A stretch of DNA of 64,000 nucleotides from NCBI RefSeq assembly GCF_011516925.1, contig NZ_WOTG01000003.1, positions 124,001 through 188,000 of the forward strand. Reading direction: 5' to 3'. Source of the DNA: Acetobacter fabarum (GTDB lineage: Bacteria; Pseudomonadota; Alphaproteobacteria; Acetobacterales; Acetobacteraceae). The notes beneath the pieces are model-generated. The model saw only the letters and a list, made by a program, of their open reading frames with translations. It did not search any database and had not been told where the DNA came from. Below are positions 947 to 27,702 of this stretch, one piece after another (position 1 is the first letter of the stretch; each line of letters starts with the position of its first letter). The position numbers and the translations under genes were made by a program.

Positions 947-1768
947 ATGCTGAGCCTCCTGCCCTTACCGTTCAACACCACGACTACCCGGGATGAGGCT
1001 CCTTTGCGTCACCACACCCCACGCCGCGCACAACACCGCTGGCGTGGGTTTGTGGCTCCCCCGGCACTTATGCTGGCAGGCATGTTCCTGCTGGGTGGTT
1101 GCGCGCAGAGCCCCGCGCGGCAGGACACATACACAACGCCAATCTCTACCTGCGCGTATATGATGCCAACAGTCTCGGGCACACGCACCTATACACAGGG
1201 GCGCAGTGGCAAGTCCGGGCAGAACAATCCAATTGATAGTGCCGTTGCCTACGGCAACCCGCAAACACCCGCATTCTGCGACCGCCCCCTGTCCGACACC
1301 CTGCGCAGTTCCATAGAGCTGGCCGACTACACGCATCTGCTGGACAGGACCGGCCTGTTCCCGACCTTGCAGCAGGCGGGGCCTTTTACGGTGTTCGCCC
1401 TACCCAATACGGCGCTGGAAACCTATAACGCGCAAACTGGTGGCCAGCTTCTGGACCCAGCCAGCACCGGCAGGGTACGCACCCTGCTAGGCTATACAAT
1501 TGTCACCGGAAAATGGCCCCACAAGGCCTTGCGTGCAGCCCTTGCTGCCGCACCGGGCCATAGCCTGCTGCTCCCCACCCTGAACGGGCAGGCGCTGCCC
1601 ATCTGGCTGGACACACAAACAGAGCAGGTCATGATTGGCCCACCCCATGGGCAAAGCAGCCCGCTCTGGGTCATGGGGATTCCACAATCCAACGGTGTGC
1701 TGTATTTTACGCACACGCTGGTTCTGCCACCCGCGGAACAGGCGGCTGTGCGCCCTAACACCCCTTAA
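947..1768 (+). CDS. Fasciclin (FAS1) domain lipoprotein
   Basis: A secreted or lipid-anchored protein with one FAS1 domain, a fold linked to adhesion and cell-surface interactions. The N-terminal hydrophobic stretch ends in the lipobox LLGGC. The FAS1 H1-type motif is visible in the second half as GPFTVFALPNTALE, followed by the family's leucine-rich segment (RVRTLLGYTIVTGKW). The start is uncertain. The ATG at 947 gives about 35 residues before the signal core, and a TTG at 1004 would give a shorter, more usual signal peptide. It follows the other lipoprotein gene by 12 bases, so both may be co-transcribed. Confidence 0.7.
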   Translation: MLSLLPLPFNTTTTRDEAPLRHHTPRRAQHRWRGFVAPPALMLAGMFLLGGCAQSPARQDTYTTPISTCAYMMPTVSGTRTYTQGRSGKSGQNNPIDSAVAYGNPQTPAFCDRPLSDTLRSSIELADYTHLLDRTGLFPTLQQAGPFTVFALPNTALETYNAQTGGQLLDPASTGRVRTLLGYTIVTGKWPHKALRAALAAAPGHSLLLPTLNGQALPIWLDTQTEQVMIGPPHGQSSPLWVMGIPQSNGVLYFTHTLVLPPAEQAAVRPNTP

Positions 1769-1810
1769 GGGATTTGGCCCATACGGCGCGGGGCTACTGG
1801 ATAGCTGGAG

Positions 1811-2395
1811 TTAAAAAACCCACGGGGAAGGGTCATCCCACCAGTTGGTATCGGGCATGACAAAATCCGTATCACACCCGGCCAGTGCACGGGCGTCTTC
1901 GGGGGTTGCGGCGCAGGCTACGGCGGGCAGTTCCATCATCATGCACCACCACTGGGCAAGAGCCAGAACGGCCTGTGTGGCCTCTGCATTCTGCGCGGCA
2001 TCCGGCGCAAAGCAGACGTAATCCGCCCCTTCTTCCCCCGCGCGCATGGCACCGTCGCGGCTGCTGCCTACGGCCACACCAAGTTGCAGTTCATCACCAA
2101 TCTGGCGTCGTGCGTCGCGCACACTAGCCGCAGTATAGGACTGGGAGAGATGAACCCCATCGCACCCGGTCTGCACAGCCAGTTCGGGTGCGTCTTCCAG
2201 CATAAGGGCAATGCCCTCATGCTGCACAAGCGGGCGAATAGCCCCGATCAGGGCTATGGCGGCAGCAGGGGCTATGCCATCCGCCAGACGCAGCAGCAAT
2301 GCTGCGGGCTGGTGGTTGGCCAGACGCTGCTCCAGCACAGGCAAAAACGCATCGGCATGCAAGAGTGCAGGCGTAACAAGATAAAGTTCCGACAC
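1811..2395 (-). CDS. Thiamine-phosphate synthase-like protein (ThiE family, divergent)
   Basis: A 194-residue TIM-barrel protein related to thiamine-phosphate synthase, which joins HMP-diphosphate and thiazole phosphate. The family segments GCDGVHLSQ and EEGADYVCFAP are recognisable. The C-terminal phosphate-binding glycine segment of true ThiE (a GGI-type turn) is not evident; the chain ends in a Trp-rich tail (NWWDDPSPW). It may be a paralogue with another role. The start is a GTG at 2393-2395, preceded by a good AAAGGA site. It is the last gene of a leftward unit after fructose-bisphosphate aldolase, with a 38-base gap. Confidence 0.6.
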   Translation of the reverse strand: MSELYLVTPALLHADAFLPVLEQRLANHQPAALLLRLADGIAPAAAIALIGAIRPLVQHEGIALMLEDAPELAVQTGCDGVHLSQSYTAASVRDARRQIGDELQLGVAVGSSRDGAMRAGEEGADYVCFAPDAAQNAEATQAVLALAQWWCMMMELPAVACAATPEDARALAGCDTDFVMPDTNWWDDPSPWVF

Positions 2396-2433
2396 TGCGA
2401 CTATCCTTTCCGCACGATGCGCACCTGCTAGGC

Positions 2434-3348
2434 TCAGCTCTTGAAGATGGTGATAATCTGGTCGAGCAGGGCCAGCGCTTCTGCCTTGGGGCGCTGGAAC
2501 ACGTTACGACCGATAATGGAGCCAAAGCCACCACCATCATGAATACCCTGAATGGTGGCCAGCAGGTTGTCCGTGCCGGTGTGTTCACCACCAGAGAAGA
2601 TGACAATCCGACGACCGGCAAAGCTGGACTGCACAACATGGTTAATGCGCGCGGCAAGCGTTGCCACATCAACCTTGTTCTTTTCGTACACAGGCTTGCA
2701 GGCATCCAGTGCCACAACGTCGGTCGGGGGTTTGACCTTGATGATGTGGGCACCACACAGGGCGGCCATATGCGCGGCATAGGCGCATACGTCCACGGCT
2801 GTTTCGGCCTTCTTGTCCAGCACGGGGCCACGCGGGTAGCTCCATGCGATTACGGCCAGACCCACGGACTTGGCTTCTGCCGCCAGTTCACGCAGTTCTT
2901 CCATCTGGTCGAAGCAGTATTCGGAGCCGGGGTAAATGGTAAAACCAATGCCCGCACAACCCAGACGCAGCGCATCCGCCACGGTGCCGGTAACGGCCTG
3001 ATCTTTTTCGGTCGCAAGGCTGTTGGAACTGTTGCACTTGAGAATAAGCGGAATTTCACCCGCAAACGTTGCGGCCCCACATTCGAGCATGCCCAGGGGC
3101 GCTGCATAGCCGCTCAGCCCGGCTTCGATCGCAAGCTGGAAGTGGTAGTGCGGGTCATAGGCGGCCGGATTGGCTGCGAAAGAGCGGGCAGGACCATGCT
3201 CAAACCCCTGATCCACCGGCAGAATGACCATTTTGCCGGTTCCACCCAGCTTGCCAGCATTGAGCAGGCGGGCCAGATTCGTCTTTGTACCGGGGTTATC
3301 GCTCTCATACTGATTGAGAATAGCCTTAACCTTCGGGGTAAGCGTCAT
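2434..3348 (-). CDS. fbaB: Class I fructose-bisphosphate aldolase (DhnA/FbaB type)
   Basis: Cleaves fructose 1,6-bisphosphate into two triose phosphates through a Schiff base, in glycolysis and gluconeogenesis. At 304 residues it fits the archaeal-type (DhnA) family. Visible motifs are VILPVDQGFEHGPARSF near the N-terminus, GFTIYPGSEYCF, and the IIKVKPP segment that holds the Schiff-base lysine. A near-C-terminal FSGGEHTGTDNLL phosphate-binding stretch is also clear. The ATG sits 9 bases after an AAGGA site and overlaps the stop of the upstream gene by 4 bases, so the two are translationally coupled. The ThiE-like gene follows. Confidence 0.9.
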   Translation of the reverse strand: MTLTPKVKAILNQYESDNPGTKTNLARLLNAGKLGGTGKMVILPVDQGFEHGPARSFAANPAAYDPHYHFQLAIEAGLSGYAAPLGMLECGAATFAGEIPLILKCNSSNSLATEKDQAVTGTVADALRLGCAGIGFTIYPGSEYCFDQMEELRELAAEAKSVGLAVIAWSYPRGPVLDKKAETAVDVCAYAAHMAALCGAHIIKVKPPTDVVALDACKPVYEKNKVDVATLAARINHVVQSSFAGRRIVIFSGGEHTGTDNLLATIQGIHDGGGFGSIIGRNVFQRPKAEALALLDQIITIFKS

Positions 3349-3860
3349 GGGGAACAGTCCTTCTTTTGCCTTGTGTCCGGCACATTATTTTCCGGATGCT
3401 GGTGTTGGCAATAACCGTGGGCGAAATACCCGACAAGAGACGATATGGCACTTAACGGCATGATAAGGTTAAATGATGGCGGGCGTTGTGGCAGAAGTGT
3501 CGCTTTTTCCTGTGCATACAAGGCCCGGATTGTCTCATATTGTGGGTTTTGCGGGCGCAGAATGGCAGTTTGCTGGCCACAACGCAACGCCATGAGCGCA
3601 CCAGCAGGACTACTGTCACAATCGAGCACGTGCACAAAAGGCTGCCGGGCCGATTCTGCGGCATCGTTCATCAGGGCATGCCACCAGCCTACCCCCATGT
3701 ATGCCACCGCACCGGGGGAGGAGAGCAGGCCAACGCAACCACCATACTCCGCCAGCCCCGCCGCACGCAAAGCCATATGCACACCAGCACGGTCATGGAC
3801 GCACACATAGCGGATACCCGCCGAAGAAGATGAGAAAAGTGGCCTGTTTTCCGTGAGCAT
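3345..3860 (-). CDS. Hypothetical protein upstream of and overlapping the aldolase gene
   Basis: A 171-residue protein that I do not recognise. Its stop overlaps the aldolase start (ATGA), which argues that it is a real, co-transcribed gene. The sequence contains small alpha/beta-looking segments (AGIRYVCVHD, FVHVLDCDSSPAGALMALRCG) but no known catalytic motif, and no signal peptide or membrane segment. It is likely cytoplasmic. The start used is the furthest upstream ATG; internal starts are possible. The divergent gene on the other strand begins about 55 bases away. Confidence 0.55.
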   Translation of the reverse strand: MLTENRPLFSSSSAGIRYVCVHDRAGVHMALRAAGLAEYGGCVGLLSSPGAVAYMGVGWWHALMNDAAESARQPFVHVLDCDSSPAGALMALRCGQQTAILRPQNPQYETIRALYAQEKATLLPQRPPSFNLIMPLSAISSLVGYFAHGYCQHQHPENNVPDTRQKKDCSP

Positions 3861-3915
3861 GCTTGACGCAATCGCTTTTGCAGGTGATTCCTTACCCCAA
3901 GAGAAGGGAAAAGGA

Positions 3916-4212
3916 ATGCAGGATCAAGACGTGGAGCCGCACTCACCCCAAGGCAACAGCTATGCCAGCATGCACACCCGCGCAAGACCTGCGGAAGAGT
4001 CCATTACCCGGCTGGACCGTGCGTTGCAGCGCATTTCCTTTGCTCTTGATAAGCAACAGCAGGCAAAACAGAACCGACCGGAAACCGACCGGCAGGAACT
4101 GCTGGCCAACATAGATGCGCTGATCATGCGCGTGCGGGACATTCTGGACCAGACGGGCCAGGCCACACATGGCCAAGACCCGCTCCTGCCCCGGCATGAG
4201 GAAGGGAACTGA
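3916..4212 (+). CDS. Coiled-coil protein upstream of zapA (DUF4164-like)
   Basis: A 98-residue hydrophilic protein with a helical, heptad-like centre (ESITRLDRALQRISFAL) and a second helix (ELLANIDALIMRVRDIL). Small coiled-coil proteins of this kind commonly precede zapA in Alphaproteobacteria and are annotated as DUF4164. I chose the ATG at 3916, which follows an AAAAGGA site closely; an in-frame start at 3853 is poorly placed. It is separated from zapA by 3 bases, so the two are almost certainly one operon. Role unknown, plausibly linked to the divisome. Confidence 0.6.
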   Translation: MQDQDVEPHSPQGNSYASMHTRARPAEESITRLDRALQRISFALDKQQQAKQNRPETDRQELLANIDALIMRVRDILDQTGQATHGQDPLLPRHEEGN

Positions 4213-4215
4213 CCC

Positions 4216-4584
4216 ATGGCGCTTGTTTCGGTCAATATCAACGGCCACAGCTATACAGTCGGGTGCGAAAACGGGCAGGAACGCCACGTTCAGGCCATGG
4301 CGCATCAGGTTGAACGCCGTGTGCAGCAGGTCCGCAATCTGGGATTTAGCGGTGAAACCCGCGTGCTAGTACTGGCTGCACTGCTGATGGCGGACGAAAT
4401 TCAGGACCTGTCAGGCAGCCGCGTGCCAGAGAGCACGGCACTGGCAGCCCTGGACGCAGAACGCCTGCGGGCGGAACTGGCCCTGACCAACACCCGGCTG
4501 GCTGATCTGGCCGATACTGCGGAATCTCTTGCAGCGGAGATGGAGCGCGCCTACATAGAAGATGCGGGGCTGCCCGACGCGTGA
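4216..4584 (+). CDS. zapA: Cell division protein ZapA
   Basis: ZapA bundles FtsZ protofilaments and supports Z-ring assembly in the cytoplasm. The N-terminal domain is typical: VSVNINGHSYTVGCENGQE, then the helix with HQVERRVQQVR. A long helix follows (LVLAALLMADEIQDL) with a coiled-coil C-terminus. Length 122 fits alphaproteobacterial ZapA. The gene is immediately followed by a 6S RNA element and fau, a conserved gene order. Confidence 0.88.
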   Translation: MALVSVNINGHSYTVGCENGQERHVQAMAHQVERRVQQVRNLGFSGETRVLVLAALLMADEIQDLSGSRVPESTALAALDAERLRAELALTNTRLADLADTAESLAAEMERAYIEDAGLPDA

Positions 4585-4725
4585 GGCAAGTCATCCCCTG
4601 GGCCGATAAGCACTTCCTAGGGAGCTGGCTCTGTTGTGGCCCTGGTCACATTACCCGGCGCCCACCTGCACTAGCAGGTCCTGGAGGTTGAAAGACCCAC
4701 GGTCCATGGTGGCTCCGCACATTCC
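4560..4725 (+). ncRNA. ssrS: 6S RNA (SsrS) between zapA and fau
   Basis: 6S RNA mimics an open promoter and binds sigma70 RNA polymerase. The segment from 4591 (TCATCCCCTGGGCCGATAAG) closely resembles the conserved 5' side of the 6S central bubble region in E. coli. The position between zapA and the ygfA/fau homologue is the standard 6S locus in proteobacteria. A closing stem is possible between GCGGGGC (4564-4570) and GCTCCGC (4712-4718). The boundaries are approximate, and the RNA would overlap the last codons of zapA and the first codons of fau. Confidence 0.72.
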
Positions 4726-5290
4726 CCCCCCCTGCAATGACCCGCCTGACATTGCGCAGCGCAAAAAAAACCTGCGGGTTGAATGCCTTGCCGCCATGCG
4801 TGCGCGCGATTACGCGCGGGATTGGGGGATTATCCACCGGCTGGAGCCTTTACTGCGCACAAGCACCGGCCCCATTGCCTGCGTGTGGCCGCTCCCGCAC
4901 GAGGTGGACCTGCGCCCGCTCTGCCACGCTCTGGCGCAAGGGGGTAAAACCGTTGTACTCCCCCAGACACCAGCGCGGGGTTCCCCACTGGTTTTTCGTC
5001 AGTGGCAGCCCGAATCCACCATGCGGGCGGGCCGCTTTGGCACACACCACCCCGATGGCCCGATTATGGAGCCTGCCCTTGTGCTGGTCCCCCTGCTGGG
5101 GTTTGACCGCAGCGGCAACCGACTGGGTTACGGCGGCGGTTATTACGACCGCACACTGGCCGCCCTGCCCCATGCCGCCAGCATAGGCTATGCTCCCTCC
5201 ACACAGGAGGTGGCACACCTCCCCCGTGGCCCCCATGACCAGCCCCTGAACTGTATTGTAACCGAAAAGGAGGTTATTCGTTTTGGCTAA
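4706..5290 (+). CDS. fau: 5-formyltetrahydrofolate cyclo-ligase
   Basis: ATP-dependent enzyme that converts 5-formyl-THF into 5,10-methenyl-THF. The family signature is clear: RKKNLRVECLAAMRARDY at the N-terminus (phosphate-binding Arg/Lys residues) and LVPLLGFDRSGNRLGYGGGYYDRTL in the second half. At about 194 residues the length is normal. The ATG at 4706 was chosen as the first in-frame start after the 6S element. The frame stays open further upstream, but that region encodes the RNA. The YmdB-type gene follows 33 bases later. Confidence 0.88.
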   Translation: MVAPHIPPPCNDPPDIAQRKKNLRVECLAAMRARDYARDWGIIHRLEPLLRTSTGPIACVWPLPHEVDLRPLCHALAQGGKTVVLPQTPARGSPLVFRQWQPESTMRAGRFGTHHPDGPIMEPALVLVPLLGFDRSGNRLGYGGGYYDRTLAALPHAASIGYAPSTQEVAHLPRGPHDQPLNCIVTEKEVIRFG

Positions 5291-5323
5291 CCCACACCCC
5301 TGCACAGTGCGAAAGACCCACGC

Positions 5324-6139
5324 GTGAGAATTCTGTTTTTGGGCGATATTGTCGGCCGCACCGGGCGTGATGGCGTTCTTTCCCGCCTGAGTGGCCTGCG
5401 CACACAACTGGGGCTGGACCTTGTGGTGGTCAATGCGGAAAACGCAAGCCACGGCTTTGGCCTGTCCCCCGCCATTGCCACAACCCTGCTGCAAAGCGGC
5501 GTGGATGTGATTACTCTTGGCAACCACGCATGGGACCGCCGCGACCTGATCGGCCATATTGATGGCGAGCCCCGCATTATCCGCCCGCTCAACTACCCGC
5601 CGGCAACGCCGGGGCAAGGGAGTGTGGTGGTGGCGCTGGCCGATGGCCGCAAGGCGCTGGTGGTCAATGTAATGGGGCGGCTGTTCATGGACCCGCTGGA
5701 CGACCCCTTCCGCTGCACCAACGACTTGCTGGGCAAGCACCGCATGGGTGCCACGGTACATGCCATTGTGGTGGATATTCATGCCGAAGCCACAAGCGAA
5801 AAATGGGCCTTTGGCCATATGCTCGATGGCAGGGTATCCCTTGTTGTGGGCACCCATACCCACACCCCCACCGCAGACCACCGTATTCTGGCCGCTGGCA
5901 CTGCCTTCCAGACCGATGCCGGCATGTGCGGGGACTATAACAGCGTGATCGGCATGACCAAGGAACCCGCCGTTGCCCGCTTTGTGCGCAAAATGCCCGG
6001 CGAGCGGCTCCAACCCTCCGAGGGTGAGGCCACGATCTGCGGCATTATGGTGGAAACGGACGATGCAACCGGTCTGGCCCGCCGCCTTGCCCCCTTGCGG
6101 CAGGGGGGACTACTGGCCCAGACCTTGCCGGATTTCTGA
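5324..6139 (+). CDS. YmdB-family metallophosphoesterase (TIGR00282)
   Basis: A 271-residue calcineurin-like phosphoesterase of the YmdB family. B. subtilis YmdB hydrolyses 2',3'-cyclic nucleotides and affects biofilm and motility decisions. The metal-ligand motifs are all present: FLGDIVG, VVNAENASHG, TLGNHAWDRRD, DIHAEATSEK and GTHTHTPTAD. The start is a GTG at 5324. The gene ends 72 bases before the converging Nudix gene, with an inverted repeat between them. Confidence 0.87.
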   Translation: MRILFLGDIVGRTGRDGVLSRLSGLRTQLGLDLVVVNAENASHGFGLSPAIATTLLQSGVDVITLGNHAWDRRDLIGHIDGEPRIIRPLNYPPATPGQGSVVVALADGRKALVVNVMGRLFMDPLDDPFRCTNDLLGKHRMGATVHAIVVDIHAEATSEKWAFGHMLDGRVSLVVGTHTHTPTADHRILAAGTAFQTDAGMCGDYNSVIGMTKEPAVARFVRKMPGERLQPSEGEATICGIMVETDDATGLARRLAPLRQGGLLAQTLPDF

Positions 6140-6169
6140 ACCACCAAAAACATCCGCCACAGGCAAACC

Positions 6170-6202
6170 CACCAGCCCACCACACCATACGGCGGGCTGG
6201 TG
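6170..6202. terminator. Hairpin between converging genes
   Basis: CACCAGCCC (6170-6178) pairs with GGGCTGGTG (6194-6202) across a 15-base loop in the short gap between two converging genes. No strong T-run follows on either strand, so a terminator role is only likely. Confidence 0.4.
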
Positions 6203-6211
6203 GCGAGGCGC

Positions 6212-6625
6212 CTATTCCGCCTGCACGTTAAAAGCCTGCACGGCAACCTGCGTGGCAGTGGTTAACGGATGTGGCAGGGCATTCAGGGCAAACCACCCCA
6301 GACCATCATGTTTATGGGGCTCGCACAACTGGGGTTCGCCCTGCACTGGGCCTGTTCTGTAAACCGGGGCCACCCAATGCGTGCCTGCGGCACGGTCAAT
6401 CTGGTCCACCACGCACAAAAGGGGACCGGGTTGCAGTTCCAGCCCCACTTCTTCGCGCACTTCACGCATGGCGGCCTGCGCTGCGGTTTCGAACAGGTCC
6501 ACCTTGCCACCGGGTAAACCCCAGCACCCGGCCTCTGGCGCCTTGACCCGCCGGATCAGCAGCAGGCAGCCATCACGCAGAATAAACGCGCCACACCCAA
6601 CCGCTGGCTGCACGGGTGTTACCAC
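6212..6625 (-). CDS. Nudix hydrolase
   Basis: Hydrolyses a nucleoside-diphosphate-linked substrate; which one is not evident. The Nudix box is complete: GGKVDLFETAAQAAMREV then REEVGL (G-x5-E-x7-REUxEExGU). It starts with a GTG, overlaps the end of the HAD gene by 7 bases, and is the last gene of the pyrD-HAD-Nudix unit. The placement suggests a housecleaning role near pyrimidine synthesis, which is inference. Length 137 is normal for a small single-domain Nudix enzyme. Confidence 0.82.
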   Translation of the reverse strand: MVTPVQPAVGCGAFILRDGCLLLIRRVKAPEAGCWGLPGGKVDLFETAAQAAMREVREEVGLELQPGPLLCVVDQIDRAAGTHWVAPVYRTGPVQGEPQLCEPHKHDGLGWFALNALPHPLTTATQVAVQAFNVQAE

Positions 6626-7494
6626 ACCAACCTGTGCACCGCAGCCGTTGGCCGCAGACCAGCCGCCTGAGCCTCGGCCGTGGCCAGAGCCATGTCATTG
6701 CCCACCATTTCCTGATGAATGCCGCCCAGAATCCACAGGCTGTCCACACCCACGGCGGCAGCCCCCCTGATGTCTGTCCCCAGCGCATCCCCAATGGCCA
6801 GAATACGTGTGCGGGGCACGTCCAGCATATCAAACACGGGTTGGTACACACCGGGGTATGGCTTGCCAATCCAGCGGACATCCCCGCCCTGTTCGGCATA
6901 AAACGCAGCCAGAGCACCAGCACAGATCTGCCGATTACCCCCTTTGACCACCACCTTGTCGGGGTTGGCGCAGATCATGGGCAGGGTGCGGGCAAGACAG
7001 GCACGCAGTTCGGGCAGGTAGGGGTCCAGCGTTGCAACGCCCCGCTCCAGATCCGGCCCTGTGTTCATCACAAAATCGGCCTGTTCCACGTCTGTTACGC
7101 GCTGGATGTTCAACCCTTCGTACAGCCCCAGATCATGCACACCGCCAATATGGAGCACCTTGTGGCCAAGGCGGGCAAACCATGGGTCTGCCTTCTCCTT
7201 CATCTGGCGGTGGGTTTCCTGCCCACTGGTCATGACCCCGTTGTAAAGGGTGCGGTCCACGCCAAACCCTTCCAGCTGGGTGGCGATTACCGCAGCAGGC
7301 CGGGGCGCGTTGGAGAGCATGACAACCCGTTTGCCCGCATTATGGAGTGCACGCAGGCATTCCAGAGCGCCGGGATAAGGGTTTACGCCATCATGCACGG
7401 TGCCCCACAGGTCTATGATGTAGCCATCATACCGATCAGCCAGCACTTCCAGCCCGGCAATCTGGGGGAGTGACCAGTCTGTGGTGGTGCTCAC
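6619..7494 (-). CDS. HAD-superfamily IIA hydrolase (TIGR01459-like)
   Basis: A 291-residue NagD-related HAD protein. Motif I reads DLWGTVHDG: the nucleophile Asp is present, but the second Asp of the usual DxD is Trp, as in the TIGR01459 branch. Motif II is MLSNAP, the cap Lys segment is VVVKGG, and motif III is AIGDALGTDIRGA. Substrate unknown. The GTG start overlaps the pyrD stop by 4 bases (GTGA), so the two are coupled. The missing second Asp could reduce phosphatase activity. Confidence 0.8.
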   Translation of the reverse strand: MSTTTDWSLPQIAGLEVLADRYDGYIIDLWGTVHDGVNPYPGALECLRALHNAGKRVVMLSNAPRPAAVIATQLEGFGVDRTLYNGVMTSGQETHRQMKEKADPWFARLGHKVLHIGGVHDLGLYEGLNIQRVTDVEQADFVMNTGPDLERGVATLDPYLPELRACLARTLPMICANPDKVVVKGGNRQICAGALAAFYAEQGGDVRWIGKPYPGVYQPVFDMLDVPRTRILAIGDALGTDIRGAAAVGVDSLWILGGIHQEMVGNDMALATAEAQAAGLRPTAAVHRLVW

Positions 7495-8564
7495 AGGTCC
7501 ACCCCACGCACATCATCCAGTGATTCTATGCCTTGTGCGCGCATGATCTGAAGCATCTCCCGCTTAAGGCGGGCAATAAGGGCTGGCCCTTCATAGGCAA
7601 AGGCCGTGTAAACCTGCACCAGATCGGCCCCAAGGCGGATACGGTCCAGAATATCCTGCCCGCTCTCGATCCCCCCGCAGGAAACAAGAGCCAGACGGCC
7701 AGCGGCAATATTGGCAACAAGCCGCAGCATCTGGGTTGAGCGCGCAGCCAGCGGCCGGCCGGAAAGCCCACCGGATTCGCCCTTGTGCGGACTACGCAGG
7801 CTATCGGGGCGGGCCAGTGTGGTGTTGTTGATGATCAACCCCTGCACACCGCCTTGAATTGCGGCTTCCACAATAGGAGCAAGGGCATCGTCTTCCAGAT
7901 CCGGGGCCAGCTTGACCAGCAGGGGCGGGCGTTCGGGGTGGCGCGCTGCAATGGCGTCCAGAATCCCCTTGAGCCTTGCCGCATCCTGCAACCCGCGCAA
8001 ACCCGGCGTATTGGGGGAAGAGACATTGAGCACAATGTAGTTCACATACGGTTTGACCCGCGCCACAAGGGCCGGGTAGTCCCGCTCGGGGTCTGCACCG
8101 GTTTTGTTGATGCCAATATTGGCCCCCACCGGCACACCGGCCCCCCCTGCCCTGCCAGATGGCAGCGGCCGGGTCAGGCGGGCAAGGCGCACGGCAAAGC
8201 GGTCTATCCCCTGATTATTGAACCCCATGCGGTTGATAACCGCCCGGTCCTCCTCCAGCCGGAACAGGCGCGGCTTGGGGTTGCCCGGCTGCGGGCGGGG
8301 GGTCACGGTCCCTGCCTCAACAAACCCGAAACCCAAACGGGCGAGCGGGCGCAGCACGCGGGCGTTCTTGTCAAACCCGGCGGCTATGCCAATGGGGTTG
8401 GAAAAACGCATACCCAGCGCGCGCGTGGCAAGGGCCGGGTCATCCTCGGGGCGCTTGAAAGGGACGGAAATGCCCAGCGTAAGGGCATCTATGGCAAGCT
8501 CATGCGCTTTTTCGGGATCAAGTTTGCGCACAAGCGGCAGGGAGAGGGATGCTAGCACTGACAT
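7491..8564 (-). CDS. pyrD: Dihydroorotate dehydrogenase (quinone), class 2
   Basis: FMN enzyme that oxidises dihydroorotate to orotate at the membrane, passing electrons to quinone (fourth step of pyrimidine synthesis). The class 2 N-terminal helix (LVRKLDPEKAHELAIDAL) is present, followed by FSNPIGIAAGFDKNA, the catalytic-Ser segment NVSSPNTPGLRGLQ, the Lys motif LLVKLAPDL and the FMN phosphate loop SCGGIESGQD. Length 357 is typical. It heads the pyrD-HAD-Nudix operon. Confidence 0.94.
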   Translation of the reverse strand: MSVLASLSLPLVRKLDPEKAHELAIDALTLGISVPFKRPEDDPALATRALGMRFSNPIGIAAGFDKNARVLRPLARLGFGFVEAGTVTPRPQPGNPKPRLFRLEEDRAVINRMGFNNQGIDRFAVRLARLTRPLPSGRAGGAGVPVGANIGINKTGADPERDYPALVARVKPYVNYIVLNVSSPNTPGLRGLQDAARLKGILDAIAARHPERPPLLVKLAPDLEDDALAPIVEAAIQGGVQGLIINNTTLARPDSLRSPHKGESGGLSGRPLAARSTQMLRLVANIAAGRLALVSCGGIESGQDILDRIRLGADLVQVYTAFAYEGPALIARLKREMLQIMRAQGIESLDDVRGVDL

Positions 8565-19725: not shown

Positions 19726-20232
19726 TTAAATCCAGTTGCTTTTTTTAATTCGCCCCATACCCACACACAACCCGGCAAGCACAACCAGTGCAAACACTGC
19801 CCCCATAACAGCCATGGAAACAGGCAGGCCGGGGATCAGATATGTAGGGGCATCACACGGTTTGGATGGCACCAGTGGCATGGAGGCCCAGCGCTCGGCC
19901 AGTGTACGCCCCACAACATGGGCCGCATGGCAGGCAGGGAATGGGCTTGGCCACCACTTCCACTCAACGCCTGCATGGCAGATTGCAAGCCCTTCCGCCG
20001 CTAGCAGAACAGGCACACATGCCCACAAGGCACCACGCCCCATGCGGGCAGGCAATACAGGGGCTACAACCCCCAGAACAATCAACACCCGCCAGGGCCA
20101 GCGTTCCCACAGACACAGCTCACACGGCATAATTCCAAGCCTGTGCTGCGTCCACCAGGCAACGCCAAGTGCGGCAAAACCGGCCAGAATCATAAAAAGC
20201 GCAACCGTGCTCAGCCGCATGGTTTTTTTCAT
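19726..20232 (-). CDS. dsbB: Disulfide bond formation protein B
   Basis: Inner-membrane quinone reductase that reoxidises periplasmic DsbA. Four hydrophobic segments are visible. The first periplasmic cysteine pair is CELC in MPCELCLWERWPW, and the second pair is split between FPACHAAH and KPCDAP, as in DsbB. Length 168 is normal. Its start overlaps the stop of otsA by 4 bases, so it is the last gene of an otsB-otsA-dsbB unit, an unusual partner for trehalose genes. Confidence 0.88.
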   Translation of the reverse strand: MKKTMRLSTVALFMILAGFAALGVAWWTQHRLGIMPCELCLWERWPWRVLIVLGVVAPVLPARMGRGALWACVPVLLAAEGLAICHAGVEWKWWPSPFPACHAAHVVGRTLAERWASMPLVPSKPCDAPTYLIPGLPVSMAVMGAVFALVVLAGLCVGMGRIKKSNWI

Positions 20233-21572
20233 GCTGTTCTTACCTCAGACATCGCCGCAATAAACGACCGCGCCCAGCTTGCCGCCGTAACACGCCATAC
20301 TTCCGCCCGCAGACGCTCCCAGCGCACCCGGCGCTCGGAGCCGGATAAACTTAACGCTTTATGTAAGGCTGCTGCAATTTCATCCGAATCATGCGGGTTG
20401 ACCAGCAGGGCATCTTCCATATCCGCCGCAGCCCCGGCAAAACGGGACAAAATAAGTGTGCCGGGATTCTCGGGGACCTGCGCAGCCACATACTCCTTGG
20501 CCACAAGGTTCATCCCGTCGCGCAGGGGGGTGACAAGTGCCGCACTGGAAAGCTGGAAAAAAGCCGCCAGCAGTTCCCGCGGGAGCGGGTGGGTCAGGTA
20601 GCGCACGGGGGTCCAGTCAAACGCGCCGTATGTGCCGTTAATATGCCCCACAATCTGGTCCAGTTCGGCCCGCAGGCTCTGGTATTCCGGCACGCTCCCG
20701 CGTGAAACCGGCGTGATCTGGAGATACGTAACCTTACCCCTGTATTCAGGGTAGCGCTTAAGGAATGTATCGTACCCGCGCAGTCGTTCCGGCAGGCCTT
20801 TGGAATAATCCATGCGGTCCACACCAATAATCAGCGGTAGACCGCGCAGGTCCTGACGCAGGCGCTGCACCTGTGGCAGGCTCTGCCCCTCACGCGCACA
20901 GGCTGCAAAACTGTCCGGATCAATGCCAATGGGGAACACCCGCGCCTTGGCAGGAATACCCAGAACCGCAAAGGCCTCATTCATATTCCGCGCGTCATCT
21001 TCGGTCTGCACGCCAATCACATCATAGGCACGCAGGTCGCGCATCAGGGCCGGGGCCTCTGGCAGAGAGCGCATCAGGCTCCATGGCGGAAAAGGGATAT
21101 GCAGAAAAAAGCCGATCCGCGCTTTGACTTTTAAATCACGCAGGGCCTTGCCAAGCGGGAACAGGTGGTAATCATGCACCCAGACCATGTCATCGGGTTT
21201 AAGCATGGGGGCCAGTCTGGTCGCGAACAGGGTGTTCACACTGGCGTAAATCTGCTGGTCATGCCGGCTATAGTTCATGAGCCCGGCCCGGTAATGGCAC
21301 AGCGGCCAAAGAATACCGTTGGAATACCCCTGATAAAACCCGTTATATTCCTTATGGGTCAGCCCTATGGTGGCGTAGGTTACGTTGCCTACCGTGTCCA
21401 CGCTGAGTGTTCTGTCCGCGCCGTCTCCGCCTATCTGCTGGCCGGACCACCCAAACCACAGACAGGGGTGGTCCTGAACAGCAGCCCTAAGTGCCACAGC
21501 CAGACCACCTGCTGGCTGTTTGCGGTCACGTACTGCTGGTACCCTGTTGGAAACAATGACCAGCCTCTGCAT
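20229..21572 (-). CDS. otsA: Trehalose-6-phosphate synthase
   Basis: GT20 glycosyltransferase that joins UDP-glucose and glucose-6-phosphate. N-terminal VIVSNRVPA with QPAGGLAVAL, the WVHDYHLFPL segment, and VDRMDYSKGLPERLRGY are all diagnostic, with DGMNLVAKEYVAAQ near the C-terminus. Length 447 is normal. It lies 2 bases after otsB. Trehalose protects against osmotic, ethanol and acid stress. Confidence 0.94.
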   Translation of the reverse strand: MQRLVIVSNRVPAVRDRKQPAGGLAVALRAAVQDHPCLWFGWSGQQIGGDGADRTLSVDTVGNVTYATIGLTHKEYNGFYQGYSNGILWPLCHYRAGLMNYSRHDQQIYASVNTLFATRLAPMLKPDDMVWVHDYHLFPLGKALRDLKVKARIGFFLHIPFPPWSLMRSLPEAPALMRDLRAYDVIGVQTEDDARNMNEAFAVLGIPAKARVFPIGIDPDSFAACAREGQSLPQVQRLRQDLRGLPLIIGVDRMDYSKGLPERLRGYDTFLKRYPEYRGKVTYLQITPVSRGSVPEYQSLRAELDQIVGHINGTYGAFDWTPVRYLTHPLPRELLAAFFQLSSAALVTPLRDGMNLVAKEYVAAQVPENPGTLILSRFAGAAADMEDALLVNPHDSDEIAAALHKALSLSGSERRVRWERLRAEVWRVTAASWARSFIAAMSEVRTA

Positions 21573-21574
21573 GC

Positions 21575-22318
21575 TTACCCCCTTCCAGCAACAAGGGACG
21601 CCAGCCAGGCCCTGAACACCGCAGGTGTTGGAAAATCTGCTGGAATACGGAAGAAGGCACCGCCCATACGGTGGACTGCGGCCATGCCGTCCTCATCCGT
21701 TACGTCGTCCCCCACAAAAACAGGTTTACGCCCCGCAAAGGGTGCGGTTTCCATCAGCAGGGAAACCGCATAGCCTTTATCCACCCCGGTCGGGCGGATT
21801 TCCCATGCCATTTTTGCTGGCTGGAGCGTAAAGGCCCCATCGGATTCCCTAACCCAACGCTCGGCAGTCTGGCGCAATACTTCTGCTTTTTCGGGCGCTG
21901 CACGGTAATGCAGCACAAAACCACCCTGCTTATGCTCCAGCCGAGTGCCCGGCAGGGTCGCCAGCAGGTCGGATGCCTGCACAAGCCAGCGCTGCGGCAT
22001 GCTCGGCAGCACAGCACGCTCAATAGGGCCACCGGGGCGATGGCGGATGGCCACGCCATGTTCCCCTGCAACCGCAAATGGAACATCACCCAAAAACTGG
22101 TCAATCTGGTCAATCGGGCGGCCAGAAATAATCGCCAGTGCGTCCCCACAGGCCGCACGCAGGCGGCTCAGGGTTTCCCGCAAATCGGGGGGAACCACCA
22201 CAGCTTCGGGCGTTGGGGCTATGTCCACCAGAGTACCATCAAAATCCAGCAGAAAAGCTGTCTGGCTCAAAGGAGGAATTTTAAAACGGCTATCCTGCGC
22301 AAAGGAGGAACCAAACAC
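21575..22318 (-). CDS. otsB: Trehalose-6-phosphate phosphatase
   Basis: HAD phosphatase that releases trehalose. Motif I is LLDFDGTLVDIAPTPEAV (nucleophile Asp), and ISGRPIDQIDQF is the motif II-like segment. The C-terminal motif is FVGDDVTDEDGMAAVH. Length 247 fits OtsB. It heads the ots operon, 97 bases after the DUF2155 gene on the same strand. Confidence 0.93.
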   Translation of the reverse strand: MFGSSFAQDSRFKIPPLSQTAFLLDFDGTLVDIAPTPEAVVVPPDLRETLSRLRAACGDALAIISGRPIDQIDQFLGDVPFAVAGEHGVAIRHRPGGPIERAVLPSMPQRWLVQASDLLATLPGTRLEHKQGGFVLHYRAAPEKAEVLRQTAERWVRESDGAFTLQPAKMAWEIRPTGVDKGYAVSLLMETAPFAGRKPVFVGDDVTDEDGMAAVHRMGGAFFRIPADFPTPAVFRAWLASLVAGRG

Positions 22319-22415: not shown

Positions 22416-23063
22416 TTAATAGGCCCCATCGCTATCCGGCTGGAACGGGTTGGCATTATCCGGCGCGGCAGGGCGCGGGGCAGCAGGTGGCGCCACAAGG
22501 CCCGGCGGAGTTGGCTGGGCCGGCAGGGTTTGCGAGCCCTGGCCCATGCCGGCACCCTCATCAACCGGGGCGGCTTCTGGCAGGGGTGGGGGGGCTACGG
22601 GTTTTGGCAAGGCGGGCAGGAAGGGGGCCATGTCATCCCCGGCACACTTGACCATCCGCACATCATAAACCGAACTTTCCAGCACCCCGAGCCCGGGCTC
22701 GGCGGCCAGCATCCAGCCCTTAAAGGTAGCCCCTCCGGGGTGTGTATCCTGTATTTCCAGCCAGGCGGCGGCATCGGGTGCCCGGGTTGGCGGGCGCTGG
22801 AGGCAGCGGCGGGCCAGAATATCCAGATTTTTGTAATGTATGGCCTCGCCCCCAACCGGCACGGACAAGACCTCCACATGGGCGTCCAACCGGTCCAGCA
22901 CACGCACAACTGCCGTACCCTTACCCTGCCATGTGCCAGCCGGGTAAACGGCCGGGGGAGCAAGTGGCGTACCCGTGGCACAGGCTGCACCACCATAACC
23001 AGCCAGCCCAAGCAGACCCGCGGCCAGCATACGGGCACACCGCCCACGGAGTAGCAACATCAT
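22416..23063 (-). CDS. DUF2155 domain protein, exported
   Basis: A 215-residue exported protein of unknown function found widely in Alphaproteobacteria, usually near NDUFA12 and mlaD genes as here. The N-terminus is a signal peptide (MLAAGLLGLAGYGGAACA). The DUF2155 core is around AWLEIQDTHPGGATFKGWML and ESSVYDVRMVKC. The C-terminal third is Pro/Ala/Gln-rich and disordered. It overlaps the upstream small gene by 4 bases. Confidence 0.82.
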   Translation of the reverse strand: MMLLLRGRCARMLAAGLLGLAGYGGAACATGTPLAPPAVYPAGTWQGKGTAVVRVLDRLDAHVEVLSVPVGGEAIHYKNLDILARRCLQRPPTRAPDAAAWLEIQDTHPGGATFKGWMLAAEPGLGVLESSVYDVRMVKCAGDDMAPFLPALPKPVAPPPLPEAAPVDEGAGMGQGSQTLPAQPTPPGLVAPPAAPRPAAPDNANPFQPDSDGAY

Positions 23064-23325: not shown

Positions 23326-23862
23326 TCAGGGCAGATTTGCGCCATTGCCCTCATTCTGCCCGGCTGCAGCATCCTTGTTGGCGCGGGTCAGCGTATCGGT
23401 CACAGAGAAAATAAACTTGCTCAGGAGTTGTTCCAGACTAATCGAACCCTGTGTCTGGCTGATGGTGCCACCTGCGGGCAGGGTTTTGTCATCGCCACCG
23501 GGGGAGAGGGCAATGTATTTGCCACCAAGCAGGCTGTCGCTGGTAATAATAGCCGCTGTATCAGCCGAGAGATGAATGTCCGGGCGCACGGTAAAAACCA
23601 CATGCGCCTTGAAGGTCTGCGGGTTTACGCTTTCGCTCTGCACGGTGCCAACCGTTACCCCGGCCAGCCGCACGTCCGAGCCAACACTCAACCCGTCTAC
23701 GTGCGAGAAGTCGGCCCCAAGCTGGTAGCCAACCGTATCTGTCTTGCGGCCTTCGCCGACCACTGCTGCGGCCAGCATGCCTGCCAGAGCCACCAGCACG
23801 GCTGCGCCAGTCAGAAGCTCCGCCAGACTGCGCCGTGATTTTTCCGCCATTGCCGATGCCAT
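23326..23862 (-). CDS. mlaD: MlaD-type MCE-domain lipid transport protein
   Basis: Membrane-anchored periplasmic subunit of the Mla retrograde phospholipid ABC system. An N-terminal transmembrane helix (TGAAVLVALAGMLAAAVVG) is followed by one MCE domain (GYQLGADFSHVDGLSVGSDV then VRLAGVTVGTV). The C-terminal leucine/glycine segment (DSLLGGKYIALSPGG) is typical. Length 178 is normal. MlaA and MlaC are encoded separately at 39-41 kb. MlaE and MlaF are not in this window. Confidence 0.88.
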   Translation of the reverse strand: MASAMAEKSRRSLAELLTGAAVLVALAGMLAAAVVGEGRKTDTVGYQLGADFSHVDGLSVGSDVRLAGVTVGTVQSESVNPQTFKAHVVFTVRPDIHLSADTAAIITSDSLLGGKYIALSPGGDDKTLPAGGTISQTQGSISLEQLLSKFIFSVTDTLTRANKDAAAGQNEGNGANLP

Positions 23863-23918: not shown

Positions 23919-24299
23919 TCACGCCTTGGGAACACTCTCGGGTGTCCATGCCTCATAATCACCGGTTGCGGGCGGGTGCTGGCCCGTTGCGTACAGGCTG
24001 CCCTGTGGGTGATAGGCCTGTGCACTGCCGGTCATGTTCGCCTGATGGGGCAGTTGCCATGGCTTGCGCTCTGCCTCGGCAATCGGGGCATCAAGCGTGT
24101 GGTGCAGCCAGCCCCACCATTCCGGCGGCACAGCGGAGGCATCTTCCCCTTTCAGGTAGATAACCCAGCGCTCGGGGCGCTCCGTGCCCCCACCCTTGCG
24201 GGCCGGGCCGGTGGATTCGTAATAACAGCGACCATCGGCATCCTTGCCAAACAGCCGACCCTTCCGGCGCGTATGCAGCCATGTTCCGAAATTTGCCAT
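23919..24299 (-). CDS. NADH:ubiquinone oxidoreductase subunit NDUFA12 homologue
   Basis: Accessory subunit of alphaproteobacterial respiratory complex I, homologous to mitochondrial B17.2. The signature residues are GKDADGRCYYES, followed by RPERWVIYLKGEDASAVPPEWWGWLHH, which matches the family core. The start at 24299 gives a 126-residue protein beginning MANFGTWLHT. It heads a leftward unit with mlaD, the small gene and DUF2155, a frequent gene order in Alphaproteobacteria. Confidence 0.88.
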   Translation of the reverse strand: MANFGTWLHTRRKGRLFGKDADGRCYYESTGPARKGGGTERPERWVIYLKGEDASAVPPEWWGWLHHTLDAPIAEAERKPWQLPHQANMTGSAQAYHPQGSLYATGQHPPATGDYEAWTPESVPKA

Positions 24300-24477
24300 G
24301 GAAGCGATGATAGGACTCCGCGCACCCCGCGGTCCATGTTTTATCGCAAACTCCCCGATCAACCGCGCGCGAGCGGGAGGATGCAAAAGTTATCCCCCAT
24401 ATCCTCATTTTGCAGGGTGATAACGGAGTGCCGGACGTGTTTTGTCGGGTTACGCGGTGTGTGTGCGCAGCGGTAAC

Positions 24478-26025
24478 ATGCCACTCATGACAACAGCCAG
24501 ACGCCATTGGAACGGTGTGCTGATGAGCACACTGGACGCCGCAGCAGACCCGGACGCACCGCTCCGCTCCGTAACGCTGCCCGCAGAGTGGGATGTGGAT
24601 GCCGCGTCCGCACTTGCCCAGCTTATGCCGGGCGACGGCCCGCTTGACCTGCCTACTCTTGCGTCACGCTGGATTACGGCCCTTGCGCTGGACGAGGCCT
24701 CTGCCCGCTCACTGGTATGGCTGCTGCTAACGCGCCAGGCCGCACCGGTGGAAGCCGTGTGGCACTGCGCGTTCGACCGCCCTGCGGGCTTTGTGGTCAA
24801 CCTGGCAGCCTTTGTCTCCCCCGGGGAAGGGTTTGCCGCGCGCACCTTTGTAGCCGCACTCAAGCTGATCTGCGCGGTACTGCGCCAGACGGCACTCAAC
24901 ATGGCCGACCAGCGCAATGGCGACCTGCTGCTGCCCGACCTGTTTGTGCCCACCCCCTCCGCTGGCACAGATGCCCCACCCATGCAGGCCGCAACTGCGG
25001 GGGACATCCTGCTGACCAACATGGATGCCTGCCTTGCCGGTGTTGGTCTGGATTATGATAGCGAAGATGGCCGTGCCGCCGCCTGTGCCATTACCGCACT
25101 GGCCACACTGACTGCCCATGCAGGACGCGGCCCGGAGTCCCTGCCCCTGCCGCCCGTACGCACCGTACTACCCGGGCTGGGCGAGACCCTGCGCGCGGTC
25201 TGGAACGAAGCCGCGGTAGAAACCGATGCTCCTCTGGCCCCGATCGAAACAGGGTTTTCCACCCCCAACCCCGTAGATGGCCTGCTTGGGGTGGAAGCGT
25301 GCGGTCTGGCCCCTGTTTTTTCCATGCTCCGACCCGATGGACGGCTGGCCAACAGCACCCGGCAACGGCTGGACATACGCGGCTTTACGGTAGAAACCGC
25401 ACTGGCCGCAGCCCTTGCGGGCGAGACTGTGCTGCCCCAGCCCGGCCCCAAGGCGCATCTGGCCATGTACCGCGCACTTACCGGCTTTGCGGACCGCATG
25501 CCCGCACGCCCAGAAACCCTGCCCACCCCTGTAAAGCTCCGGCTCGAGCGGGGCATGCGGCGGATTCTGCCCGCACGGCATGGCGGTTTTACACAAAAAA
25601 CCACCATTGGCGGGCACCGCCTGTTCATGCGCACAGGGGAGTATGAAGATGGCACACTGGGTGAGCTGTCCCTGACCCCCACGCGGGAAAGTGGTATGGT
25701 GCGCGGGCTGATGGAAAGCTTTGGGGATGCCGTAAGCATTGGCCTGCAATACGGCGCGCCGCTGGAAGCCTATGTGGAAAACTTTGCCTATTCCTGCTTT
25801 GGCCCGGCTGGCACGGTAGAAGGTGACCCGGTTGCCTCCTACGCCACTTCCATGCTGGACTATGCCTTCAGGGCCCTGTCCGACACCTATCTGGACAGGC
25901 GCCTGCCCGACGGCCCCCATCAGGACAGCACGTCCGAACCGGACCCGCTGCTTCCGCTGGACCTGCCGGATGGAGATGATACGCAACCCACACGCCCACG
26001 GCGCAACCTGCGCCTGGTCTGCTAG
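24478..26025 (+). CDS. Class II ribonucleotide-reductase-like protein with TSCPD domain, likely catalytically inactive
   Basis: A protein of about 515 residues related to the C-terminal half of class II ribonucleotide reductase (NrdJ). The segment FVVNLAAF (about 24790) corresponds to NrdJ's ACNLASLNL region. TNMDACLAGVGLDYDSEDGR (about 25017) corresponds to the NLGALLMRMGLPYDSDEGR region, and CGLAPVFSMLRPDGRLANS to IEPDFALVKF. The C-terminal part (from about 25580) is a full TSCPD domain (GFTQKTTIGGHRLFMRTGEY, then LGLQYGAPLEAYVENF). The catalytic NPCSE motif expected just before NLAS is not present, and neither are the cysteines of a working enzyme's tail. It may be a regulatory or structural paralogue. 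Start uncertain: ATG at 24478 or 24487. Confidence 0.68.
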   Translation: MPLMTTARRHWNGVLMSTLDAAADPDAPLRSVTLPAEWDVDAASALAQLMPGDGPLDLPTLASRWITALALDEASARSLVWLLLTRQAAPVEAVWHCAFDRPAGFVVNLAAFVSPGEGFAARTFVAALKLICAVLRQTALNMADQRNGDLLLPDLFVPTPSAGTDAPPMQAATAGDILLTNMDACLAGVGLDYDSEDGRAAACAITALATLTAHAGRGPESLPLPPVRTVLPGLGETLRAVWNEAAVETDAPLAPIETGFSTPNPVDGLLGVEACGLAPVFSMLRPDGRLANSTRQRLDIRGFTVETALAAALAGETVLPQPGPKAHLAMYRALTGFADRMPARPETLPTPVKLRLERGMRRILPARHGGFTQKTTIGGHRLFMRTGEYEDGTLGELSLTPTRESGMVRGLMESFGDAVSIGLQYGAPLEAYVENFAYSCFGPAGTVEGDPVASYATSMLDYAFRALSDTYLDRRLPDGPHQDSTSEPDPLLPLDLPDGDDTQPTRPRRNLRLVC

Positions 26026-26061: not shown

Positions 26062-26523
26062 ATGAGCACTCCCCAATCCCGTCTGGCCGAACTGGGTATT
26101 GACCTGCCCACACCCGCAGCCCCCGTGGCCAATTATGTTGCCTGTGTGCAGACAGGCTCGCTCCTTGTAGTTTCAGGCCAGTTGCCGTTGCACAATGGCA
26201 AGCTGTTCGCCACCGGCAAGCTGGGGGACGCTGTGAGTGTGGAAACAGCGGTGGAAGCCGCGCGTTACAGCATGATCAACGTGATCGCACAGGTTAAAGC
26301 GGCAGTGGGTGACCTCTCCCGCGTCAAGCGTGTAGTGCGTCTGGGCGGCTTTATTGCCTGCACGCCAGATTTTACAGCCCATGCTTCCGTCATGAACGGG
26401 GCGTCTGATCTGGCTGTGGCCGTCTTTGGGGATGCCGGACGCCATGCCCGCTCCACCGTTGGCGTACCCTCCCTGCCGCTGGATGCCCCGGTGGAAGTGG
26501 AAGGTCTGTTCGAGATCGCCTGA
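26062..26523 (+). CDS. RidA-family protein (YjgF/UK114 family)
   Basis: Trimeric enamine/imine deaminase family that clears reactive 2-aminoacrylate and related intermediates. The family core is visible as SGQLPLHNGKLFATGKLG, followed by VKRVVRLGGFIACTPDF and RSTVGVPSLPLDAPVEVEG. Arginine and the C-terminal Glu of RidA-type sites are present. Length 153 is slightly longer than canonical RidA, typical of the longer subgroup. It has a good AAGGAAC site and lies 36 bases after the RNR-like gene. Confidence 0.85.
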   Translation: MSTPQSRLAELGIDLPTPAAPVANYVACVQTGSLLVVSGQLPLHNGKLFATGKLGDAVSVETAVEAARYSMINVIAQVKAAVGDLSRVKRVVRLGGFIACTPDFTAHASVMNGASDLAVAVFGDAGRHARSTVGVPSLPLDAPVEVEGLFEIA

Positions 26524-26541: not shown

Positions 26542-27702
26542 ATGGCTGACTGGTCCGTTACCCTGCACAACAGCATTCACGACATTCCCGCTGCGGAATG
26601 GGCGCAATGCGCAGGGCCGGATAACCCTTTTGTCAGTCATGCGTTTTTAAGCGCACTGGAAGATAGCGGCTCCACCGGCCAACAAAGCGGGTGGGTGCCA
26701 CGGCATGTGTGCCTGCATAGCTCCGATGGGCAACTGGCCGCTGTCTGCCCCGCCTACCTTAAAGGCCATTCATGGGGCGAATACGTCTTTGATCAGGGCT
26801 GGGCCCGTGCGTTTGAAGCCGCGGGGGGCCGCTACTACCCCAAGCTCCAGATTGCCATCCCCTTTACCCCCGTACCCGGCCCCCGAGTGCTCCTCCACCC
26901 TGCTGCCCCACCGCAGACCACCGCCGTTATGGCTGATGCCCTGCGCCAGATCTGTGCGGATACGGGTCTGTCCTCCGCCCATGTGACCTTCTGCACCGAA
27001 GCGGAAAGTACGGCCCTGCACCAGCAGGGCTGGCTGCCCCGCCTTGGCCTGCAATACCACTGGCACAACAGAGGCTACGCAACGTTTGACGATTTTCTGG
27101 CCACGCTCTCCGCCCGCAAGCGCAAGAGCATCAAACGCGAACGGCGCGATGCCAACGCTGCGGGACTGACATTTGAAACCCTGCAAGGCGCCAGCATAAC
27201 GCAGGCGGACTGGCAGGCGTTTTACCAGTTCTACCGCAATACAATCGACCGCAAATGGGGCAGCGCTTACCTGAGTGCCGAGTTCTTCCCGCTTATGGCG
27301 CAACGGCTGGGCGAGCGGGTTGTGCTTATACTGGCGCGCAACGGCTCAACCCCCGTGGCCGCGGCCCTGAACCTGATGGGCACCCATACGCTCTATGGCC
27401 GCAACTGGGGGTGCGAAGGCAACTGGCCCTTCCTGCATTTTGAACTCTGCTATTACCGCGCCATAGATTTTGCCATTGCCCACGGCCTGCAACGGGTAGA
27501 AGCCGGCGCGCAGGGGGAGCACAAAATCCAGCGGGGCTACGAGCCAACCCTCACCCACTCCGCCCACTGGCTGCAAAGCCCCGGCCTGCGCAATGCGGTG
27601 GACCGTTTTTTGCAGGCCGAACGCCCCGCCATACTGGCCGAAGCACAGGCCCTGAGCACATTAACCCCCTACAGGCAGGACCTCCCGCCCCAGAACCCCT
27701 AG
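26542..27702 (+). CDS. FemAB-like / DUF482 acyltransferase family protein
   Basis: A 386-residue GNAT-superfamily protein resembling the peptidogalycan/DUF482 family, which has two GNAT-fold halves like FemAB. Typical segments are [36 protein letters not shown] and [17 protein letters not shown]. The Arg/Lys-rich [13 protein letters not shown] helix and [22 protein letters not shown] end the protein. The substrate is unknown. It follows ridA by 18 bases and may be co-transcribed. Confidence 0.8.

Follow-up and report, generated by a model that had tools for sequence, protein, structure and literature searches.

The nrdJ gene for class II ribonucleotide reductase has probably survived in Acetobacter fabarum as an in-place pseudoenzyme, with its catalytic middle deleted and its product kept as a non-catalytic scaffold for a second NrdJ function. 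The gene lies in the window, the whole 64,000-nucleotide stretch of DNA that was analyzed (Table 1). In the proposed course of events, nucleotide reduction would have been taken over by the class I reductase NrdAB, a plausible trigger, the catalytic middle of nrdJ would have been deleted at the ancestral locus, and the shortened protein would have been kept for a second, non-catalytic job already present in NrdJ. Its TSCPD (IscU-like) domain, with a pseudo-barrel as platform, may form oligomers or bind a conserved partner, possibly as a response to purine dNTPs. That the shrunken protein has kept its gene position and is strongly selected makes such a second job probable.

In the window sequence and its translation, positions 24478-26025 of the forward strand form an uninterrupted open reading frame of 515 amino acids. 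The ATG at 24487 is common to most relatives and that at 24478 is an alternative, which gives a product of 512-515 aa. An earlier sequence-only reading had described a class II reductase relative of about 515 residues, in a long undisturbed frame, that keeps TSCPD and lacks the catalytic site. This description is borne out by Pfam, profile comparison and joint alignment, with the refinement that most relatives start 9 nt later. Pfam recognizes TSCPD (PF12637) only, at residues 373-469, and the score of 32.4 bits, above the curated cut-off of 22.8, places the protein in this family. Two NrdJ models of NCBIfam also match it, in two stretches each, the better one with 141.7 bits against a cut-off of 1737. 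A search of solved structures by sequence, up to E 1, found none for the window protein. The TSCPD part modelled alone from 15 sequences reached a pLDDT of 81, with IscU and SufU among its top structure matches at weak scores. AlphaFold modelling of the entire protein from 12 related sequences gave a pLDDT of 42, and this model was set aside. The tail is conserved as well: P490, L492, P493, P497, L513 and V514 each occur in at least 90% of the 22 rows of alignment A1, which holds 22 of the compact sequences. The L054 protein was inspected by eye only.

Table 1. The compact nrdJ-derived gene, its parts and its neighbours (positions in the window)
Feature	Position	Strand	Basis
DUF2155 gene, locus marker	22416..23063	-	
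MlaD-domain gene, locus marker	23326..23862	-	
NDUFA12 gene, divergent neighbour, marker of the ancestral nrdJ locus	23919..24386	-	
Compact pseudo-NrdJ gene	24487..26025	+	Open frame, conserved start, dN/dS
N-terminal segment related to NrdJ residues 11-97	24508..24768	+	Residues 7-48 by match; beyond 48 by multiple alignment only
Deletion point, NrdJ ~159-491 gone (C199 and NPCSE loop)	24766..24792	+	Alignment; edges approximate
Pseudo-barrel, residues 105-345, counterpart of NrdJ from 492 on, with more internal deletions	24790..25512	+	Profile comparison and alignment
TSCPD (IscU-like) domain, residues 359-475	25552..25902	+	Pfam, NCBIfam, column comparison, domain model
Conserved tail (PLLPLDLP ... 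LRLV), replaces the NrdJ Zn/redox tail	25933..26022	+	22-row alignment
RidA/YjgF-type gene, downstream, 36 bp gap	26062..26523	+	
FemAB-like (PF04339) gene, downstream	26542..27702	+	

The relationship to NrdJ extends over most of the protein. A profile of 22 family members aligns with two full NrdJ proteins over NrdJ residues 492-1080 (hhalign probability 100, E 6e-51), which agrees with the earlier observation of NrdJ-type segments in order followed by TSCPD. At the other end, residues 7-48 match NrdJ 11-57 with P 1.5e-4, where the controls, a reversed segment and four other NrdJ segments, gave P 0.2-0.85. Taken together, these two comparisons show that the window protein corresponds to NrdJ from the N-terminus through TSCPD with the middle excised. 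In the joint alignment, 90 of NrdJ positions 1-158 have a partner in the window protein, as do 228 of 492-960, 118 of 961-1085 (TSCPD) and 35 of 1086-1192. In the block at about 159-491 (about 333 residues, including C199 and the NPCSE loop), 10 of 333 positions are paired; the block is deleted. The segment WHCAFDRPAG had been read as standing in place of NPCSE, which proved wrong: WHC precedes the gap, and the NPCSE block itself is missing. By common descent, as judged from these alignments, the gene is derived from the class II reductase gene nrdJ. NrdJ genes with long intein-like insertions were also seen by eye in L021 (an Acidimicrobiaceae MAG; ORF 3277-8004) and L020 (ORF 1408-6753), and one insertion in L021 splits the catalytic motif right after NPC.

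The residues on which catalysis depends are affected throughout. The N, C and E of the NPCxE loop occur in all 20 intact reference proteins of the joint alignment, as do the radical, redox and tail cysteines. In the same alignment the window protein has no counterpart of the radical cysteine, of its N and E neighbours or of either active-site redox cysteine, none of its own cysteines falls at the radical position, and the PTGT motif is missing. NPCxE is also absent from 34 compact ORF rows, in which some genes are counted twice. C199 and C488 (L073 reference numbering) are taken by homology to be the active-site redox pair, and the catalytic roles of the NrdJ positions, the tail excepted, are those generally described for class II reductases. 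The C-terminal Zn finger and redox cysteines found in the majority of class II enzymes leave all six positions unpaired in the window protein, in line with the earlier remark that a Cys-rich tail is lacking. Their roles (Zn or redox) were assigned by spacing after the accessible part of PMC5704485, which deals with the C-terminal region whose Zn/redox part is missing here. Judged by alignment, the protein is without every catalytic and redox residue of NrdJ and, on NPCxE, the redox pair and the Cys tail, does not qualify as a working class II ribonucleotide reductase.

The locus itself is old. It has the order DUF2155-MlaD-NDUFA12, divergent from nrdJ, and of 33 family loci, two of which begin inside the gene, 31 show MlaD, 25 NDUFA12 and 29 RidA beside it. 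Intact NrdJ of 1200 aa occupies the same spot in other alphaproteobacteria, where 15 of 19 loci have a divergent NDUFA12 no more than about 5 kb away; two of these, L104 and L110, have RidA and FemAB-like genes downstream as well. Dead forms outside the family have a divergent NDUFA12 in all 20 loci fetched with long flanks. The window gene is thus the alphaproteobacterial nrdJ itself, passed on vertically and not moved from its ancestral locus. These neighbours persist throughout the class, next to intact and dead forms alike, which could also mean that the retained function is tied to NDUFA12, MlaD or RidA and not to dNTPs. This we regard as improbable, as a functional link was not seen and the old gene order explains the conserved neighbours equally well, given that intact NrdJ has the same neighbourhood. 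Two adjacent trehalose synthesis genes, judged by eye to be OtsA-like and OtsB-like, lie close by in the window (20229-22318, reverse strand) and recur near the locus in various family genomes. In a 387-genome sample of the class, the family profile has matches in 276 genomes, and an 81-residue NrdJ segment that surrounds NPCSE has matches in 255 (E <=0.001), 12 of them weak (worse than 1e-24); for six family rows, no match to this segment was found among the matches listed. In a plasmid collection 16 records match, and 3 in a phage collection; all of the matches listed are below 60% identity, none covers 80% of the query, and two are annotated as class II reductases. The phage records LR745208.1 and KY940711.1 carry TSCPD-bearing proteins, one of them annotated as a class II ribonucleotide reductase.

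Both halves of the window protein are under strong purifying selection. Against nine Acetobacter orthologues, dN/dS of the whole gene is 0.030-0.180, that of the part up to residue 352 (the pseudo-barrel side) 0.040-0.183 and that of the remaining TSCPD part 0-0.183, with most changes falling on third codon positions; for neighbouring genes the corresponding range is 0.019-0.207. A Bombella pair (0.265, dS 1.65) is near saturation and is therefore not counted in the quoted range. TSCPD was found in 279 of the 297 genomes of the family, a few of these hits being other TSCPD proteins. The family profile still finds 14 of the 18 genomes without it, several of these matches lying at contig ends. 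The proposal of a pseudoenzyme under selection is supported by these values, by the conservation across Acetobacteraceae and by the loss of catalytic and redox residues, and random drift is not seen in the window's lineage. The same reading had allowed for a remnant, and a slowly decaying relic without function would fit the different pieces lost by different lineages and the eight family genomes without a match to the family profile (G061, G119, G163, G195, G057, G157, G191 and G218, of which G163 and G195 are 90-92% complete). For the window's lineage this option is rejected by dN/dS, which is low over the whole length in Acetobacter, and with a conserved tail and frames of about 500 aa open in diverse genera a relic is very improbable in general. 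More room for it is left in genera g41 and g86 (L128-L132), where dN/dS is 0.23-0.31 for frames delimited by stop codons or truncated where the locus ends. There the open frames at the same locus code for a degenerate NrdJ, some 480-550 aa long, with more of the barrel kept and no TSCPD match. The gene can also be lost, as the eight genomes without a match, five of them in genus g57, indicate. The compact pseudo-NrdJ is absent from all five g57 genomes examined, and in G057 the region L072:7812-10115 encodes a second type of class II reductase, about 770 aa long, which has both NPCAE and a Cys tail.

Nucleotide reduction in the window genome can be assigned to class I, since it encodes an NrdA of 665 aa, with barrel and all-alpha domains, and an NrdB. 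Among family genomes NrdB was found in 21 of 22 of one set and 11 of 16 of another, the misses being five genomes of genus g48 and G068. Pfam detects no ATP-cone in the NrdA of the window genome, and across 120 genomes of the order, 119 of them with a match, most ATP-cones are found in open frames of NrdR size, about 150-305 aa, with seven of the listed matches in longer frames of 391-984 aa. One further match (G114:C10:75896-76156) falls in a 207-aa frame with an in-frame TGA. The pseudoenzyme might accordingly serve as a regulatory subunit of NrdAB, exerting in trans the activity control that the ATP-cone provides elsewhere. This role is doubtful, however, because none of the five genomes of g48 yielded NrdB, and each contains a long NPCxE-bearing NrdJ frame together with a second open TSCPD frame of 512-676 aa. 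A genus without NrdB that still keeps the compact protein implies that the job is not simply one of helping class I. The deleted block, moreover, presumably includes the dimer and effector region known from NrdJ structures. In the one g48 genome checked (G187), the compact protein stands at the old locus (L059) and the intact NrdJ away from it (L073), where the latter looks like a re-acquisition or relocation.

A different role would be to help a catalytic NrdJa on another chain, by reducing or assembling it in the manner of NrdJb. This has a precedent in Pseudomonas aeruginosa, where NrdJb is a separate C-terminal part needed for in vivo activity, according to the accessible part of PMC4520616. 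The window protein can hardly act in this way: it has no Cys tail for passing electrons, and its genome holds a single TSCPD match and only one large-subunit ORF, whose domains are those of class I, with no NrdJa partner chain found. The preferred reading, a scaffold kept for a second NrdJ function, leaves the cause of the switch less certain. NrdB scores over the cut-off in 14 of 19 genomes with intact NrdJ, so the presence of class I alone does not kill NrdJ. Two NrdB matches occur in G327 of family f32, the one dead-NrdJ family outside the window's family that was checked, and on both grounds class I takeover is a plausible trigger and no more.

Similar losses have taken place elsewhere in the class. 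Dead forms at the same locus were found in 11 further families (21 genomes examined), with lengths, taken mostly from open frames, of about 280 to about 1120 aa: about 1120 aa in f32, 1089 in f149, 880-1001 in f88, 967 in f103, 812 in f126 and f139, 811-927 in f52, 731 in f98, 667 in f84 (G379 of this family has 10% contamination), 282-301 in f8 and 277-284 in f83. Outside the 21 stand G672 (f152), G547 (f88), G481 (f98) and G484/G556 (f103). G477 (f95) carries another class II type, with NPCAE. Neither NPCxE nor a Cys aligned to the radical Cys occurs in any of the 21 genomes, and in f149 and f88 a Cys is still aligned to the second redox Cys. The form in f32 scores as a ribonucleotide reductase in Pfam without NPCxE or an aligned active-site cysteine, which is a warning for annotation pipelines. 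A tree of neighbour proteins (43 of 46 rows, by a quick method, several rows being sparse or AT-rich; the intact loci L108, L111 and L113 lacked neighbour genes and are not included) requires 7 changes of the dead/intact label, at least 2 of them forced by well-supported branches. Several independent losses are therefore likely, with two as a cautious minimum.

What has been retained differs between these families. A recognizable TSCPD is kept in 8 of the 11 (f32, f149, f126, f139, f52, f8, f83 and f84), and the conserved columns of intact TSCPD domains are for the most part unchanged in the dead ones, with close resemblance in most families. In f8, f126 and f52 the four Zn-position cysteines are kept and both redox-position cysteines are lost, on assignments that follow the accessible part of PMC5704485 (one f8 row is partly masked). 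The f83 protein of about 280 aa comes from contigs of 1.16-1.32 Mb, with a locus of 27-28% G+C. Two pairs of it give dN/dS values of 0.024 and 0.067 (dS being 1.6 in the latter), and the ratio is 0.088 in f8 and 0.078 in f126, in all three families for frames delimited by stop codons or truncated where the locus ends; the f88 pair is saturated in dS and no ratio is quoted. In f98 and f88 a degenerate barrel is kept with no TSCPD match, and the match in f103 is partial. Together with g41 and g86, these cases mean that TSCPD cannot be the whole function everywhere, that the barrel remnant also matters somewhere and that no single kept piece explains all of them. A bolder proposal, which we put forward tentatively as a possibility, is that the TSCPD region is a module in its own right, which senses or docks purine dNTPs or a conserved partner and whose function in alphaproteobacteria outlives nucleotide reduction, and that the dead NrdJs, such as the TSCPD proteins of about 280 aa in genomes of 1.2-1.3 Mb, are its free carriers. 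If so, a bacterial ribonucleotide reductase would repeatedly have become a non-catalytic regulator.

According to the authors of PMC9669993 (2022), the IscU-like domain of class II reductases had no reported role at that time. Lineages that dropped catalysis and kept the domain suggest that its function is separable from nucleotide reduction, and the dead forms supply small proteins, some of about 280 aa, for studying it alone. A search of the open-licence literature, which excludes subscription papers, found no report of dead NrdJs of this kind. The tree paper PMC9531940, in its accessible part, dropped sequences of fewer than 400 or more than 1100 residues, a length filter that may have hidden such forms.

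Among known systems, the closest is the alphaproteobacterial NrdJ of 1200 aa (NCBIfam NF005736), with which the window protein shares ancestry, locus, the N-terminal segment, the segments after the active site and the order in which TSCPD follows. It differs by the loss of a block of about 333 residues, which removes NPCSE together with the first redox Cys, and by the lack of the second redox Cys, PTGT and the Zn/redox tail. The NrdJb of P. aeruginosa is likewise a separate chain with an IscU-like domain, as described in the accessible part of PMC9669993, but it has a redox Cys tail and works with NrdJa (PMC4520616, accessible part), whereas the window protein has no tail and carries an extra pseudo-barrel. 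Pseudoenzymes are a known kind of protein, and those derived from reductases are known from herpesviruses. Herpesvirus R1-type proteins are likewise reductase large subunits that lost catalysis and were reused, but they are viral, belong to class I and act in host defence, whereas the window protein is bacterial, belongs to class II and stands at its ancestral locus. What sets the present case apart is a reductase-derived pseudoenzyme that is bacterial, of class II, in place and recurring across families.
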